From NCBI RefSeq assembly GCF_001939115.1, contig NZ_MQTZ01000041.1, positions 1 to 64,000 on the forward strand: DNA of 64,000 nucleotides, in the 5' to 3' direction. The notes beneath the pieces were generated by a model that worked only from the letters and a program-made list of their open reading frames with translations, ran no database searches and was not told the origin of the DNA. The stretch is from Leptolyngbya sp. 'hensonii'. Lineage in GTDB: Bacteria > Cyanobacteriota > Cyanobacteriia > GCF-001939115. This document shows positions 13,318 to 20,481 of this stretch, one piece after another. The position numbers and the translations under genes were made by a program. The first letter of the stretch is position 1. Each line of letters begins with the position of its first letter.

Positions 13318-14049
13318 CTAGCAAGCTCCTTCTTTCTTTAAGACCACCCAAAAGGTTTTCAGAATCAGACTTAAGTCATAAGCGAGGGACCACTTACGCT
13401 GGTACAGCAGGTCGAGTCGGATAATATCCTCAAAATCCTTAACAGAAGACCGACCGTTAACCTGCCATTCACCAGTGATGCCAGGCTTGACATCGAGACG
13501 CTTCCAGTGATGCTGCTTGTAGCGTAGAACTTCATCAACAGTCGGGGGACGAGTACCCACCAGGCTCATATCTCCCATGAGAACATTCCAGAATTGGGGG
13601 AGTTCATCCAGACTGGTTTTTCTCAGAAAACGGCCAACCCGGGTGATCCTGGGGTCATTGCGATTCTTAAAAATACTGCCTTTAGCTTCGTTATTAACCA
13701 GATGCTTCAGCTGGTCCGCATCTACTACCATGGAACGAAATTTCCAGATCCGGAAGGGGCGACCTTTCAGGCCACAGCGAATCTGACTATACAGAACCGG
13801 TCCAGGATTATCGAGCTGAACCGCGATGGCCAGGGGAATAAAGATCAGAGCAGTAAACGTCAATCCAACCAGGGCACCCACAACATCGACCAGCCGCTTA
13901 AATTTGCTGACGGTCGAAGGGTGAACATTGGCTGGGGAAGCCAGGGACTTGAACTTTAAGCCAGTCAACACGGGAGTTGAGATGGAGATAGGGATAACGG
14001 TTGGGGTGATGTCAGTCGTAATCACGATATTCAACCTGCTCTTCCGCAA
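13318..14049 (-). CDS. Undecaprenyl-phosphate sugar phosphotransferase (bacterial sugar transferase)
   Basis: A 243-residue monotopic phosphoglycosyl transferase that would load the first sugar phosphate onto undecaprenyl phosphate for polysaccharide synthesis. After a variable N-terminus comes the membrane segment KRLVDVVGALVGLTF, then QIRCGLKGRPF, IWKFRSM, the catalytic Asp-Glu pair in KTSLDELPQFWNVL, SLVGTRPPT and KPGITGEWQVNGRS. It is the short form without the multi-helix N-terminal domain of WbaP. No other sugar gene is adjacent, but an export and polymerisation block lies about 22 kb away at 36441-40184 and may use its product (inference). Confidence 0.92.
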   Translation of the reverse strand: MRKSRLNIVITTDITPTVIPISISTPVLTGLKFKSLASPANVHPSTVSKFKRLVDVVGALVGLTFTALIFIPLAIAVQLDNPGPVLYSQIRCGLKGRPFRIWKFRSMVVDADQLKHLVNNEAKGSIFKNRNDPRITRVGRFLRKTSLDELPQFWNVLMGDMSLVGTRPPTVDEVLRYKQHHWKRLDVKPGITGEWQVNGRSSVKDFEDIIRLDLLYQRKWSLAYDLSLILKTFWVVLKKEGAC

Positions 14050-14438: not shown

Positions 14439-16403
14439 TCACCTGGAAAGCTCCTGGAAATTGATCGCAAATGGTTCTTCCAATTTCTGTTGTGCACTGG
14501 CAAGAATGCGCCCCAGATAACGCTGTAGCCGACTACTCTGAACTGGATTTGGCCGATAGAGTGAATGGCCTGCTTGAAAGACTTCTTTATAAAAGAGTGG
14601 TTCTGCAAGGAGAGCCTGATAGTCTGGATTGTGCTGGGACTGGGTAGTCAACAGAACCCTATCCCGCTGGGTAGGAACGAGTCCTGGCGGGAGATGTCCT
14701 TCCAGGAGAGCCAGGATGTGGGTCTGGCAGGCCTGGGTGTTAATCCCTCGCCGCTCCAAACGTTGCATCACGCCCCCCAGGGATGAGGGCTGTTCTGGAA
14801 AGGTGCGGAGCAACTCTAGAAGAAGAAAATAATCGCCATATTGCTGGCGGGGCAAATCAAGTACCTGGGAATAAAACGGCAGCAGGGCCAGACCGTAAGC
14901 AATTCGGCTACAAGCTGAGACTCCTAAAGGCTGCAGCGGATAAGTATCCTGAATAATCACAGCATTGGGTAACTTCTGGCGTAGCCATCGGGTTAGCACG
15001 GCCAGAGAGGCAGTTCCACCTGTACATACCACCTGCTTGATAGCCTGGGCTTCAAAATTAGCCTGACTTAACAGAGTATTAAGCTCTCGATTGAGGCGCT
15101 GGACAAAAGGGAGCAGAATTTGACTTTCATATTGCCGTCGAGTGATCGTCCAGCGATCGCTCCCCCATTCCATGGTCAAGCGTTCCTGATGCTGCAACAC
15201 CAGTTTCAGATGTCGGGCCATGTCTAGCAGATACTGTCCAGTTCCTGAGCTGCGTAAGTGCTGTTGTAGCCGGGATCGGCCTTCGGGGTCTGCTTCTACT
15301 GGTAGGGGCAAAGTCAGTCCTTTGAGATCAAAATCCAACTGCAAATCTCCGACACCATTATGAAGAACTGATGAAGTTTGAACCCAAGAAGGGCGGGGAA
15401 GGGGTGACTCCTGCGGTTCCAACTGTCCCAACGAAGAAACCTCTCCAGATCTGGACTTAGCCAAATGGGGTGCTAAGAGCTGGCAAACAATATCCTGGTC
15501 AATGCCACCACCGGCATAGGCAAAGCTGCGCATGGTGAAATTTTTGTAAGTCAGGAGTTGCAGGTCCTGGGGAATATCTACTGCTGCCAGTTCCGTTGCA
15601 GTGGCTCCCATGCTGAGCACCAGCGTTTTCCCCTTCCAGACCAAATTTGTTTCTTGCTCCCCCTTAATTCGAATATCCCCACGCTCTCCCGCTTGTCGCA
15701 GCCCCGATAACAGGGCTGCAATAGGTTCCTCAATAAAGAAAATCAGATCGGGAGAGGGGACGAGTCCTGCCCCCAAAACAGCTTCTCGCACATTGAAACT
15801 GTAGGTGTCGGGCCAATTGACGGGATACCCAATAATGACCCCTGCGAGCTGGTCGATCGCAGCAGAAAAAGTGCTGGGATCAATTCCTGTGGCGGCACAA
15901 GCTAGTGTTCCATAGCCCACCTGCTCCCCTACAGTCTCGTCCATCTGACGGCCCTCGGCACTGCCTACTGTCAGGGTGGTCAACAGAAGTTGCAGCGCCT
16001 GTTGAATTGCAATCAGGGAAATCTCCTGCTGCTCCGTCCACTGGATCATGGGTTCCCAGTTTGGCTTTTGAATCGAGATAGAGGGAATCCCCACTTTGAG
16101 GTAGGGTTTAAAGTTTTGCAACAAGATCCCAGGAGCCGCTGCTGCTTCTGTGACAGAGGCTGGTAAGCGAAAACAGCGTTCAGGTTCGGCACTGGTCGTT
16201 TCATACCAGTAAATCGGATGGAGCTTACCCGTCAGATAATTCAGGAGTACTGCCGAACATCCTGTCGTCCCGACATCAATACCCAGATACCAGATTGGTG
16301 TGTCATGGATAGACTGGCTCAGAATCGCAGGAGGACGATTACTGGCTACTATCTTCCCGAAGGATTGTGAATCTGAAATATGAAGATCTGGCTCGATTAG
16401 ATT
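14439..16403 (-). CDS. Hsp70-like (DnaK-family) protein lacking its own start codon; probable -1 frameshift product with the upstream gene
   Basis: The frame encodes about 654 residues with an Hsp70/actin ATPase fold: phosphate-1 motif YLGIDVGTTGCSAVLL near 16285 and phosphate-2 motif VVCTGGTASLAVLTRWL. From the point where the frame opens (near 16460) down to 16125, I read no ATG, GTG or TTG. The first possible start, TTG 16124, lies after the phosphate-1 motif and would delete it. The upstream 936-residue gene reaches A10 (16402-16411) in codons AAA AAA AAA ATC TAA. A -1 slip there joins VKKK to NLIEPDLHIS and this protein. Programmed frameshifting, transcriptional slippage, or one missing A in the sequence would all give one fused polypeptide. 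A classical DnaK substrate domain is not evident. Confidence 0.75.
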   Translation of the reverse strand, partial: NLIEPDLHISDSQSFGKIVASNRPPAILSQSIHDTPIWYLGIDVGTTGCSAVLLNYLTGKLHPIYWYETTSAEPERCFRLPASVTEAAAAPGILLQNFKPYLKVGIPSISIQKPNWEPMIQWTEQQEISLIAIQQALQLLLTTLTVGSAEGRQMDETVGEQVGYGTLACAATGIDPSTFSAAIDQLAGVIIGYPVNWPDTYSFNVREAVLGAGLVPSPDLIFFIEEPIAALLSGLRQAGERGDIRIKGEQETNLVWKGKTLVLSMGATATELAAVDIPQDLQLLTYKNFTMRSFAYAGGGIDQDIVCQLLAPHLAKSRSGEVSSLGQLEPQESPLPRPSWVQTSSVLHNGVGDLQLDFDLKGLTLPLPVEADPEGRSRLQQHLRSSGTGQYLLDMARHLKLVLQHQERLTMEWGSDRWTITRRQYESQILLPFVQRLNRELNTLLSQANFEAQAIKQVVCTGGTASLAVLTRWLRQKLPNAVIIQDTYPLQPLGVSACSRIAYGLALLPFYSQVLDLPRQQYGDYFLLLELLRTFPEQPSSLGGVMQRLERRGINTQACQTHILALLEGHLPPGLVPTQRDRVLLTTQSQHNPDYQALLAEPLFYKEVFQAGHSLYRPNPVQSSRLQRYLGRILASAQQKLEEPFAINFQELSR

Positions 16404-19207
16404 TTTTTTTTGACGTTGTCCAATGGATTGTTTGGGTCTGGGAAGTCCTCGTCGAACAGACTTCCCGGAAAGTCAGCGAAAACATCTTCCAGAGTTACCT
16501 CTGAGATCTTCATTGCCATCGAAGCCCCTGATTGATCGCTCCCCTGCGGTTTTAGTGGCAAGGAAGGGTCTGAATCAGAGTCCTCTGAATCAACCGCAGG
16601 CAAATCCCCAAATAAATCATCCAGATTTTCTAGCGTTAGATTGGAAGGTTCTGTTGGAGAGACCGGGTTCGGATCCGGGTCAGCCAATTCACTCGACAAA
16701 GAGGACCCAATTCGGGGAGAAATCACCGATGAAAGATCCTCACTTTCATCGGTAGGCAGGAGATCGGGGAGAGCGAGATCGGGATTGGGATCAGACAGAT
16801 GAGTTGCGAAGTCATCCAGGGTCAGGTCATCCCAGTTGGGGAGAGTGGACGATACTCCTGGAGAACTGGCAGACTTTGGGGTTGGAGAGGAGGGAGGTCT
16901 ACTTTCAATGGCAGCAAGACCCAGGTTTTCAGCCTGCGTTTCTGGCTTCTCTAAACTCTCCAGGTTATACAAATCCTCACTTAACTGCTGCAGGGTATCC
17001 GGATTGATAGAAAGATTAATCTCTGTCTTATCTTCACGATCGTCGGTGGCCAGCAGATTCTCTTCTGGGGCAGCCGGGATATACCCTTCATCCAGAGAGG
17101 CTGCTATCGTAGACTCTCCCTGTCCCAGGGATGGCAGTTGCATATCTCTGTCGGGGGCTCCTGCTGCTGGGCCTGCTAGGGGCCGAGACGGGTCCAGACC
17201 AGGGCCTGTCGCTGGTTCCAAAGGTTCTTCACCCAACAGATTGTAGAGAACTAATTCTGGGGGCTGGGGGCGATCGGCACCCTCAGAGTCAGAAGTCTGC
17301 TCGGACGAAAGTATGGGTGAAATCAGCTCAAACAGTTCATCCATCGAATCTTCTGTCAGGGGTTTGGTGGTTCCTGGAGAAGGCGTGGTAGAGGGATCTG
17401 GGGGGTTGGACTCCTCAAATAGCAATAGATTATCCAGGGTGAGAGAGTCCTCACCTGGAAGAACAGGAAACTCCTCTGTATCATCAAGGAACTCGGTTTT
17501 AGCCGAAGGCTCTAGGGCGCTAACCTTTCCGACATCGCCTGAGGCGCTGGTTGAGATCAGGGGCTGACCAGAATTCGCTGTGGGCTGAGCTACTGTGGGG
17601 GGCGAAGCGGTTGGCTTAGGGATCTCCTGGGTTCCAAACAGGCTGTTATAAAAATCATCTAGTTCGTAGAAAGTTTCGTTGTCAGCCAGTGCTGGTTCCT
17701 CTACTTCCAGGTTGGTAGGGGAGCCAGCACTGGCCAGGGAATCCCCCAAAGAATCTGGAGGGGAAGCCGGTCCCTCCTCCTGCAGAGACGCGCTGAGCTG
17801 TTCCAAAAATTCCAGGGCAGAATCCAGATCATCCGCTTTGGCTTCAGCCAGGGGTTCAATATTGGTCGCTAATCCCGATGGGGGAGGAGCCGTGACATTT
17901 GGGAGTTCCAGATCCTGGGCCATTCTGGTCGGTTGGCCGATCGCGGGTATGCCAGCCTGAGATTCTAGAATGGACAAGTCCTGAACAGCATCCCCACCGT
18001 CAACGGTTGAATCGCCATCCAGATTGTCCAACAGGGACAGGTCCGGCTCACTCAGATTTAAATCGGACAGGTCTAACTCTTCCAGATCAAGATCTTTCAG
18101 GCTGCTATGGTCTTCTCGCCCAAAGGTTGATCCTGACCTGGGTTGGGGGGGAATGGGCGGTAACTCGATACCCGGGTAGGGCAGCTTGAATCCGCCCAGA
18201 ACTTCTTCCGGCTTGCCACCTGGATGGGGAGAAGGAGAGGAGGTTCGGGCAGGGTCTGGAGGGAGGGGAAAGACCAGTGGTGATTTGGTTGGCACTTCAG
18301 TTTGGGATTCTCCGATCGCCGACCCGAGCGGGGGCGCAGAAGACTGCATAAACGAGGATGCCTCCCGGCCCAATTGTTGGGCCAGATGGTTCACCAGTGC
18401 GGTAAACATCACCTCCCCCTGATTGCCCAGACTGTGCATCCGGTCAATCCCTTGAGACAGAGACTCCTGATAGCTCTGAATATTCCGGTTGAGTGCTTCA
18501 AAAATCGTACTTAAGGTCGAGTCCAGGGACATCAATAACTGATCTGATCGGGCCTGCAGAGCCTGGAGATGTTCAACCCGCTGGGCTGGATGCAGCAATG
18601 GGGAAGATTGCATGTCCGGTGGTAGGGCTGCCTGTGGATATCCTTCATAATTGAAAGAACGGCTCTCCATGGCCAGCATTGCTTGGGCAACCTGCTGAGA
18701 TAGGCGCTCTTGCAATTGCCCCATCAGGCCCTGCAGGAACTCTGCAATCATCTGTTGCTGATGGGCAGACGGAAGCGCATTTTGTTCCTGCCGTTTGGCC
18801 TCTAGTTGGCGGATCTCATGGAGCATAATTTCCCGCTGCTGCCGGAGGGCTTCTAGTTCTGCCTGTAACGGCTGGGTCAGACTAGATCGCAGATATCCCA
18901 TCTCCTGGACGACTGCCTGTAAAATCTGCTGGGCCGCATCTGGTTGAGCAGGCCTGGTATAGGGATCTCCATAGCCCTGAGGGGAATAGGCCCCGTAGGA
19001 AGTTCCCTCCGATCGACGCTGAAGAGCCTGCTCCTGTTGCAAAGTTTGCTGTTGTAGAGCAGCCAGATAATTACGAATCCGTTCCAGAAGTTGCCGTTGC
19101 TCGATCGCCTCTCCTGACATTACCCAGGGTAATCGTGGACCTGCCTTACTGAGAACACGATCAATTTCAGCAACTAACGTTTGAATCTGGTCTTTTTGGG
19201 GATTCAC
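16397..19207 (-). CDS. Large acidic repeat protein with coiled-coil N-terminus, function unknown
   Basis: 936 residues from GTG 19207. Residues 1-280 are Gln-rich and helical, likely coiled coil (QQLLERIRN-type heptads, EALRQQREIMLHEIRQLEAK). The rest is low-complexity, rich in D, E, S, P and L, and punctuated by short acidic-hydrophobic motifs: DSLTLDNLLLFEE, DDLTLDDFATHL, SNLTLENLDDLFGDL, SEVTLEDVFADF, ELDDFYNSLFG and ADDLDSALEFLEQLSASL. These look like docking peptides on a disordered chain. It runs by a likely -1 frameshift into the Hsp70-like frame, so it may scaffold or recruit clients for it (inference). I recognise no known family. Confidence 0.8.
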   Translation of the reverse strand: MNPQKDQIQTLVAEIDRVLSKAGPRLPWVMSGEAIEQRQLLERIRNYLAALQQQTLQQEQALQRRSEGTSYGAYSPQGYGDPYTRPAQPDAAQQILQAVVQEMGYLRSSLTQPLQAELEALRQQREIMLHEIRQLEAKRQEQNALPSAHQQQMIAEFLQGLMGQLQERLSQQVAQAMLAMESRSFNYEGYPQAALPPDMQSSPLLHPAQRVEHLQALQARSDQLLMSLDSTLSTIFEALNRNIQSYQESLSQGIDRMHSLGNQGEVMFTALVNHLAQQLGREASSFMQSSAPPLGSAIGESQTEVPTKSPLVFPLPPDPARTSSPSPHPGGKPEEVLGGFKLPYPGIELPPIPPQPRSGSTFGREDHSSLKDLDLEELDLSDLNLSEPDLSLLDNLDGDSTVDGGDAVQDLSILESQAGIPAIGQPTRMAQDLELPNVTAPPPSGLATNIEPLAEAKADDLDSALEFLEQLSASLQEEGPASPPDSLGDSLASAGSPTNLEVEEPALADNETFYELDDFYNSLFGTQEIPKPTASPPTVAQPTANSGQPLISTSASGDVGKVSALEPSAKTEFLDDTEEFPVLPGEDSLTLDNLLLFEESNPPDPSTTPSPGTTKPLTEDSMDELFELISPILSSEQTSDSEGADRPQPPELVLYNLLGEEPLEPATGPGLDPSRPLAGPAAGAPDRDMQLPSLGQGESTIAASLDEGYIPAAPEENLLATDDREDKTEINLSINPDTLQQLSEDLYNLESLEKPETQAENLGLAAIESRPPSSPTPKSASSPGVSSTLPNWDDLTLDDFATHLSDPNPDLALPDLLPTDESEDLSSVISPRIGSSLSSELADPDPNPVSPTEPSNLTLENLDDLFGDLPAVDSEDSDSDPSLPLKPQGSDQSGASMAMKISEVTLEDVFADFPGSLFDEDFPDPNNPLDNVKKKI
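16402..16411 (-). promoter_or_regulatory. A10 slippery run joining two reading frames
   Basis: On the minus strand GTC AAA AAA AAA ATC TAA. A AAA AAA is in phase for -1 slippage, and the zero-frame stop follows one codon later. The -1 frame encodes the Hsp70-like protein. Runs of nine or more A also favour RNA-polymerase slippage. One added A would restore a continuous frame. Confidence 0.55.
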
Positions 19208-19776
19208 AGTGCGACCTTTAGGTAGAACTCTTCACACTTGTAGGAGCTAATATACATCTATTGTTATCGATTACATTGAGATTAAAGCCCTGATCGACTT
19301 TAATTGTCACCAACTGCAGGATGATGTATAGCCGCAAGAATTAGGTTTTCTTTTTCTGAAACCCATCTCTTTTCTACTGTCTTATTTTTCCCTACTGCTG
19401 CAGTTTCAGAACGACCAGATTGAGTGTAATCAGATTCAGCTCAAAGTGGGCAATCCCCAAACCGTTTAGACTAAGGGGAATTCCAAACTTGAGTTAAGCT
19501 ATTGCTATTGATACAAAATTCTGCCTAAAGTGTCGATATAAGTTCTATTTTCGCAATATCACCCCTTTCCCAGCACCTACCGTAATTCCATTAACCTGTG
19601 CGCTTGCTTTTCCTGCCCGTTTTTACTTGACATCCTGGATTCGATATTTAGACAAACTGTGACTTCACGCTGATTCTGTTTTTATCTGCTTTACTGGTAA
19701 CGGTGTGGCCACCCAGTCCCAGTCAGGAGTCATTGTATTATTTAGTTCTCTCAAGATGTATCAGGCTACTGGTCCC
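19208..19776. other. Divergent promoter region
   Basis: About 570 bases between the acidic-repeat gene (leftward) and the Crp-type gene (rightward). A TTGACA box at 19627-19632 may be a -35 element for the regulator, but no good -10 stands at the right spacing. No small RNA was recognised. Confidence 0.35.
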
Positions 19777-20481
19777 ATGGAAGACCGATTCAGCACTCGT
19801 GAATCTAACCCTAACAATGCCCTAATTCGCTCTGCCCCGTTTTTTCAGGGTATTCCGGAGTCTGCTGTGGAGAAGGCCACCTGCCATGTGGTGACTCGCA
19901 GTCATCCTCCTAACCAGGTCATCTTACTGGAGAATGACTGGGGCACTTCCGTGTACTTTATTCTGGACGGTTGGGTCAAAATTCGAACCTATAATCTGGA
20001 TGGTAAGGAGATCACACTTAATATTCTGGGAAAAGGGGAACTGTTTGGAGAGATGGCTCCTCTGGATGAAGTTCCCCGATCGACAGATGTGATTACTGTT
20101 GCCCAAACCGTGATTGGCAATATGCCAGCCCAGGACTTTGTTCAACTCATCCATACTGAACCCCTGGCCGGGATTCGACTGGCTCAGTTGATGGCCCGCC
20201 GCTTACGTCAGGTGAATCGCCGGTTGCGCCTGCGAGAGACCGACAGTACGTCTCGGGTTGCTGATATTCTGCTGTTTCTGGCTGAAGGCCAGGGCAGACG
20301 GACTGCGGAAGGTGTAGAAATCCCGAATCTGCCTCATCGGGAGTTGAGCAGTCTCAGTGGTCTGGCCCGCGAAACAGTCACCCGAGTTTTAAATAAGTTG
20401 GAGAAGAAGGGGCTGATTCTGCGCGATCGAGATACCCTCTGTATTCCAGATGTCCATGCGGTAGAACGGATGCTCGTATAA
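19777..20481 (+). CDS. Crp/Fnr family transcriptional regulator
   Basis: 234 residues from ATG 19777 (MEDRFSTRESN). An in-frame GTG at 19705 or ATG at 19756 would lengthen the N-terminus, so the start is uncertain. The cyclic-nucleotide-binding beta roll includes VYFILDGWVKIRTYNLDGKE and LGKGELFGEMAPLDE. A long helix and a winged HTH follow, LSSLSGLARETVTRVLNKLE near residues 188-207. The pocket lacks the full cAMP-binding Arg/Ser signature I would expect in a cAMP receptor, so the ligand is uncertain. A cAMP-making enzyme is encoded at 29867. DUF2232 follows at 20610 on the same strand. Confidence 0.9.
   Translation: MEDRFSTRESNPNNALIRSAPFFQGIPESAVEKATCHVVTRSHPPNQVILLENDWGTSVYFILDGWVKIRTYNLDGKEITLNILGKGELFGEMAPLDEVPRSTDVITVAQTVIGNMPAQDFVQLIHTEPLAGIRLAQLMARRLRQVNRRLRLRETDSTSRVADILLFLAEGQGRRTAEGVEIPNLPHRELSSLSGLARETVTRVLNKLEKKGLILRDRDTLCIPDVHAVERMLV

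Follow-up and report, generated by a model that had tools for sequence, protein, structure and literature searches.

What does a locus produce when its ATPase frame has no start codon and the gene before it ends at a run of ten A residues? We examined such a locus on the minus strand of the window (the whole stretch of DNA analysed, 64,000 nucleotides), where the gene for a large acidic protein, referred to here as the scaffold, reaches its stop codon directly after the run, and an open frame for a DnaK-like ATPase overlaps the run in another phase. The features of the locus are the following:

16402-16411, minus strand: A10 run, the putative slip tract (letter count; homologous tracts in relatives)
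16397..19207, minus strand: scaffold gene, 936 aa, GTG start (assigned mechanically), ending VKKKI-stop (ORF list)
16397..16399, minus strand: zero-frame stop codon TAA, separated from A10 by 2 nt, inferred to terminate the free scaffold (frame reading and stop-position enrichment)
18308..19207, minus strand: conserved N-terminal domain of the scaffold, residues 1-300 (44-50% identity to six relatives; low-confidence model)
16400..18307, minus strand: acidic, Pro/Leu/Ser-rich region of the scaffold, residues 301-936, net charge -98 (composition)
14439..16472, minus strand: open frame of the DnaK-like ATPase, stop to stop, 677 aa, with no start codon before TTG 16124
16281..16401, minus strand: linker from the run to the phosphate-1 motif in the ATPase frame, ~40 aa, without ATG, GTG or TTG
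14442..16292, minus strand: DnaK-like ATPase domain, 617 aa, with the phosphate-1 motif at ~16280-16248 (alignment, model and fold matches)
13318-14049, minus strand: sugar transferase (Bac_transf), downstream
19705-20481, plus strand: Crp-like regulator, upstream

The zero-frame codons at the 3' end of the scaffold ORF read GTC AAA AAA AAA ATC TAA, in agreement with the first-pass annotation of this DNA, which had described a 936-residue gene ending VKKKI-stop after three AAA codons. Two further claims of that annotation were borne out. Reading the frames across the tract confirmed that the -1 frame is the frame it called Hsp70: the ATPase frame is the one entered with one extra A (a -1 shift) at the window A10. 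A frame scan confirmed that this frame has no start codon ahead of its phosphate-1 motif, since its earliest ATG, GTG or TTG is TTG 16124, downstream of the motif. The A10 contains a slippery heptamer; A AAA AAG is the slippery heptamer of genes with dnaX-type -1 ribosomal frameshifts. Across the junction the predicted scaffold-ATPase fusion reads VKKKNLIEPDLH..., which is a translation only, without peptide data.

The ATPase domain was modeled from a nine-sequence alignment with a pLDDT of 66. The best Foldseek match of the model is 6ha7_B (E 1.6e-11), and a second look at the fold gave 9a5j_A, an integrative model (Z 23.7, rmsd 3.4, 327 aligned), and 7kru_B (Z 22.8, rmsd 3.6, 339 aligned), with MreB (1jcf) close behind at Z 21.5. 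As modeled, the domain has the DnaK-type nucleotide-binding (actin-type ATPase) fold. It is like the nucleotide-binding domain of DnaK and BiP in fold and differs from it in sequence, with 14-19% identity to the DnaK rows listed and a score for Pfam PF00012 (HSP70) of 12 bits, below the cut-off of 20.6. The earlier description of this frame as Hsp70-like is therefore apt for the fold and is not supported at the level of the family score. The scores against PilM_2 (18.1, cut-off 27) and the best NCBIfam match (19.7, cut-off 708.55) also fell short. Few fold matches cover the part after approximately residue 490, which bears on the question of a substrate-binding domain. Residues of the phosphate-1 motif (D, G, S and A among them) are conserved in at least 95% of 120 loci, from which we infer that the ATPase probably binds ATP.

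Less can be said of the scaffold, for which no Pfam family scored above its cut-off. The model of residues 1-300 is mostly helical at low confidence (pLDDT 56, pTM 0.20), and on this model the N-terminal 300 residues are probably helical. The acidic stretch that follows is of very variable length among homologues, and the linker from the run to the phosphate-1 motif spans 29-482 aa in loci with the run (median 62, n=55). The first-pass annotation had called the scaffold an acidic repeat protein; the acidic, Leu/Pro/Ser-rich character stands, and the repeat is weak, with four copies of an LDDLF-like motif, where 500 shuffles average 0.66 and likewise reach 4 at most. Vinculin and Max, matched by the scaffold in a PDB sequence comparison, were set aside as apparent coiled-coil similarity.

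Among six loci with long flanks (the window and L005-L009), the sugar transferase lies downstream in three (window, L005, L007) and the Crp-like regulator upstream in two (window, L005). The remaining long-flank loci differ, and no role follows from the neighbors.

Apart from the junction A10, no A or T run in the 64-kb window reaches nine. The 5.94 Mb genome, in which the locus is single copy, contains eight sites with A9 or longer on its two strands and two exact A10 runs, the junction being one of them. The other A10 (on contig C62) falls on the strand opposite to a 513-aa open frame, and its own strand shows no split gene. Only the junction and an A9 on contig C53, among the eight sites, sit in long sense frames; this A9 (L239, G000:C53:52802) is in frame within a 698-aa open frame, in a stretch cut at its end, and is possibly a second slip site. 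We also examined 18 other genomes that had been selected for carrying the run, comparing the positions of their A10 runs with those of the class-wide matches described below. Sixteen of the 18 have exactly A10 at the junction, and nine have no exact A10 elsewhere in the genome. In 701 kb of homologous genes, A runs of at least eight comprise one A8, ten A9, 50 A10 and six A11, and the same 701 kb contains no T run of at least eight.

A class-wide search gave a match in 212 of 388 genomes, our own included; the set comprises one genome per species, and ours is the sole member of its order. For 140 of the remaining 211 matching genomes, those at the top of the ranking, we analysed the best row, so that lower-ranked genomes, including most of family code f23, lie outside the sample. 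With the window this gave 141 loci, to which we added 20 loci picked by hand for spread, weak matches included. Family and genus codes for the per-genus counts were entered by hand. A run of A9-A11 is present at the junction in 66 of the 141 loci. Three of these (L090, L172, L174) carry the run with a broken ATPase frame and were excluded, leaving 63 run loci with an intact ATPase frame, in which the run is A9 (9 loci), A10 (48) or A11 (6).

Both the scaffold N-terminus and the ATPase fall within the stretch in 117 of the 141 loci; they are fused in one frame in 71 and split in 46. A run of A9 or longer is found in 42 of the 46 split loci, in 17 of the 71 fused loci and in 7 of the 24 loci without a visible scaffold start. 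Among the 20 distant loci, some at ~30% identity, ten have A9 or A10 at the junction, including members of family codes f3, f8, f10 and f19, and for main and distant loci combined the run is found in 16 family codes of one class. The junction lacks a run in the other ten distant loci. Six of these are either fused, or carry the two parts in a common frame, or are split with no run; for two, no scaffold was found. Nine named relatives belong to the cyanobacteria, on which grounds the window is assigned there too. These nine, partly on the same contigs as loci from the class-wide set, include four with the run: Okeania sp. SIO2C9 (A11), and filamentous cyanobacterium CCP2, Oculatella sp. LEGE 06141 and filamentous cyanobacterium LEGE 07170 (A10 each).

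The encoded lysines do not account for the run. KKK occurs anywhere in the linker in only one of 54 fused genes without the run, which argues that the lysines follow from the A's and not the reverse. AAA makes up 61% of the lysine codons in run-bearing genes (707/1155), so the recurrent, unbroken AAA AAA AAA cannot be put down to codon bias alone.

The phase of the ATPase frame relative to the scaffold frame is known for 53 run loci. The number of A's to be added (mod 3) to pass from scaffold to ATPase is none in 17 loci, one in 28, the window among them, and two (or minus one) in eight. On a tree of the ATPase domain we counted at least 11 phase changes among 44 run loci and at least eight changes of tract length among 53, indicating that phase often shifts through the flanking bases and not through the length of the tract. 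The tree was made with FastTree only, is quick and has many weak forks, and related genomes are not independent. Close relatives provide examples. L152 and L155 have the same genus code and both carry A10, and they need one and two A's, respectively; L169 (A11) and L170 (A10), again of one genus code, are in different phases and have a one-base change just before the run. Tract length is the same in 11 of the 14 genus codes that hold at least two run loci and differs by one A in the other three; in genus code g54 it is the same in all seven loci. As far as the sequences allow, what is conserved is the tract, not the reading frame.

A second feature accompanies the tract. Of the two alternative frames, the one with an A fewer than the ATPase frame has a stop codon at most 11 nt from the run in 52 of 63 loci, against 14.1 expected (sd 3.3) from same-phase positions of the same genes; the other has one in 17 of 63 (12.8 expected). 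Counted with one locus per genus, the near stop is present in 31 of 40 (9.1 expected). It is found in 27 of the 28 one-A loci, all eight two-A loci and nine of the 17 in-phase loci. Family code f32 is the exception, with a near stop in one of nine loci (2.6 expected) although the run is present. In the in-frame loci outside f32, the stop is placed within 11 nt in eight of eight in the frame that a -1 shift cannot reach, and in one of eight in the frame that it can. The enrichment implies that in loci of the window class the free scaffold terminates directly after the run, and that, outside f32, slippage in the in-phase loci would likewise terminate the scaffold at once.

Of the 71 fused loci, 54 are run-less, so that not every lineage requires the two products, a point against the slippage reading. 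Most of the 54 fall in one tree clade of 51 rows and the others in f32. A few run-less loci of f32 retain what may be relics, a KKED stretch containing AAAAAA. The linkers of L063 and L078, two run-less fused genes, contain such a stretch, which may be what is left of a slip site. L161 and L173 show a third arrangement: the run is lost, the two genes are separate, and that of the ATPase has an ATG of its own a short distance ahead of the phosphate-1 motif. In Symplocastrum torsivum (L007:1060-7944) the scaffold and ATPase genes stand apart, with an alpha/beta-hydrolase gene on the opposite strand between them. L059 and L135, which are split without a run, resemble assembly frameshifts, an inference; L059 sits among fused relatives on the tree. 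The losses suggest that fusion alone, or two genes, can serve, and that the gain from two products is perhaps modest or bound to certain lineages.

How, then, would the ATPase frame be reached where it is out of phase? We give a probability of roughly 85% to programmed transcriptional slippage as the source of two products, the scaffold alone and a scaffold-ATPase fusion; its occurrence in vivo, the polymerase as its agent and joint action of the two products are inferences, made without RNA or protein data. Slippage of RNA polymerase on A10 would make the mRNA pool heterogeneous, individual molecules carrying 10, 11, 12 or some other number of A's. Those with 10 would encode the 936-residue scaffold ending VKKKI, and those with one extra A (or an equal number mod 3) would encode a fusion of ~1,590 residues. 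The likely purpose, again inferred, would be a fixed ratio of free to ATPase-bearing scaffold in one assembly. The RNA-DNA hybrid of bacterial RNA polymerase is given as 9-10 bp in the available part of one source, which also reports efficient slippage on nine A's (PMC5009743), and a run length of 9-11 fits slippage by such a polymerase. Transcripts of E. coli and Buchnera mainly gain bases at A/T runs, according to an excerpt of PMC5574713, consistent with the one-extra-A phase being the commonest.

A shift by the ribosome would need no such mixture. In a programmed -1 frameshift on A AAA AAA or A AAA AAG, like that of E. coli dnaX, the mRNA is uniform and some ribosomes slip back one base; the heptamer within the tract and the exact -1 relation of the frames in 28 of the 53 loci, the window included, would suit it. 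SD-like motifs upstream of the run (7/63 against 1.7 expected) could aid a ribosomal shift, or internal initiation, and recoding at oligoA stretches in chloroplasts was ascribed by its authors to the ribosome, as far as the accessible portion of PMC8254509 goes. The same shift would nevertheless lead into the near stop and not into the ATPase at eight of the 53 loci, and at 17 the ATPase is already in frame. L155 belongs to the group of eight, and its ATPase frame, like that of the window, has no ATG, GTG or TTG from where it opens to the motif. In the in-frame loci outside f32, a -1 shift would miss the near stop. No conserved downstream hairpin was found: over the 63 loci, the 60 nt downstream of the run are no more folded than the rest of the same genes (mean z 0.01), and those of the window are at -5.9 kcal/mol (z +1.23). 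The occurrence of the ATPase frame in all three phases and the lack of a conserved hairpin lead us to favor transcriptional slippage over the -1 ribosomal shift, which we consider unlikely. The first-pass annotation had left ribosomal shift, transcriptional slippage and a missing A side by side; slippage has gained from the comparison, and the missing A is strongly opposed by it.

That last option, in which the length of the run is wrong in the assembly and the locus is really a plain fusion, draws on the proneness of homopolymers to sequencing and assembly error and on the plain fusions seen in 71 of the 141 homologous loci. The tract is, however, kept at 9-11 A in 66 of the 141 loci, and run length and near stop recur in unrelated assemblies, including the single-contig G017, G023, G024, G134, G189 and G276; nor can error place and keep the A's themselves. 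We regard it as having next to no chance of being right. A contingency locus, in which cells differ in the length of the DNA tract and the fusion is turned on or off accordingly, would also account for a homopolymer inside a gene with lengths of 9-11 and three phases among species. Against this, tract length is steady within genus codes (11 of 14, from between-species data only), it changes on the tree at least eight times in 53 loci compared with at least 11 phase changes, and the near stop is kept in a fixed frame, so phase variation appears very improbable. If instead the two were separate genes, with the ATPase made from its own start and the run incidental, the A run would not be kept. 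L161 and L173, with an ATG shortly ahead of the phosphate-1 motif, could be cited in support, as could the in-frame ATG in the linker of 10 of the 30 out-of-frame run loci; the other 20 have none, and only the window and L155 lack ATG, GTG and TTG altogether up to the motif. Homologues in which the ATPase has its own start, which the first-pass annotation had named as grounds for abandoning a fusion, were seen only in the run-less lineages of L161 and L173. We see hardly any room for the two-gene explanation.

Returning to transcriptional slippage, we lean, with less assurance, towards the broader proposal that this is an ancient cyanobacterial slippage site, with selection acting on the tract and not on the frame. 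Polymerase stutter on approximately ten A's would co-produce both proteins whatever the frame in the DNA, across the 16 family codes and all phases, and its losses would lead to a permanent fusion or to two genes. Conditions that affect slippage, for example temperature or nucleotide levels, could conceivably shift the ratio as well.

To our knowledge, few cases of programmed slippage in chromosomal genes are known. A site that spans much of a class and is free of phase offers a natural experiment, in that sister species with the same A10 in different frames predict opposite main products. Annotation of these genes as fused, split or frameshifted would misstate the proteins made. The locus also draws attention to two unstudied proteins, the large acidic scaffold and the DnaK-like ATPase; their stoichiometry is seemingly worth keeping.

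Programmed transcriptional slippage is a known kind of mechanism. In the open-licence literature of PubMed Central, we found no description of a class-wide, phase-free site in a cyanobacterial chromosomal gene pair. The available portions of PMC3711429 (the GeneTack survey), PMC5009743 and PMC1088944 do not mention the site; the supplementary files of GeneTack, where it could possibly be listed, were outside our scope.

The comparisons that follow rest on partial texts of the sources. Thermus thermophilus dnaX gives tau and gamma through transcriptional slippage at a run of nine (PMC5009743), and the cyanobacterial locus resembles it in having two products that share an N-terminus, a homopolymer of ~9-10 and stops near the tract in other frames. 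In Thermus dnaX it is the short product that depends on slippage, the long one being encoded in frame, whereas the window needs slippage for the long one; the cyanobacterial locus differs further in that three phases (17, 28 and 8 of 53) occur within one family. E. coli dnaX, with its -1 ribosomal frameshift (PMC5009743), shares an A-rich slippery site and two products, but the cyanobacterial site has no conserved downstream hairpin and its frame relation is not fixed. In Nostoc sp. PCC 7120, poly-A slippage was proposed for IS elements with 8-10 A's (PMC1088944), as it is here; those elements are mobile, whereas the scaffold and ATPase are a chromosomal gene pair. In tssM1 of Citrobacter rodentium, with A11 and transcriptional frameshifting, both forms and their ratio are needed (PMC4256274). 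There, as at the window, the A run lies just ahead of a stop and extra A's give the full-length protein; tssM1 is described for C. rodentium and Yersinia pseudotuberculosis, and the cyanobacterial tract extends over 16 family codes of one class in another kind of protein.
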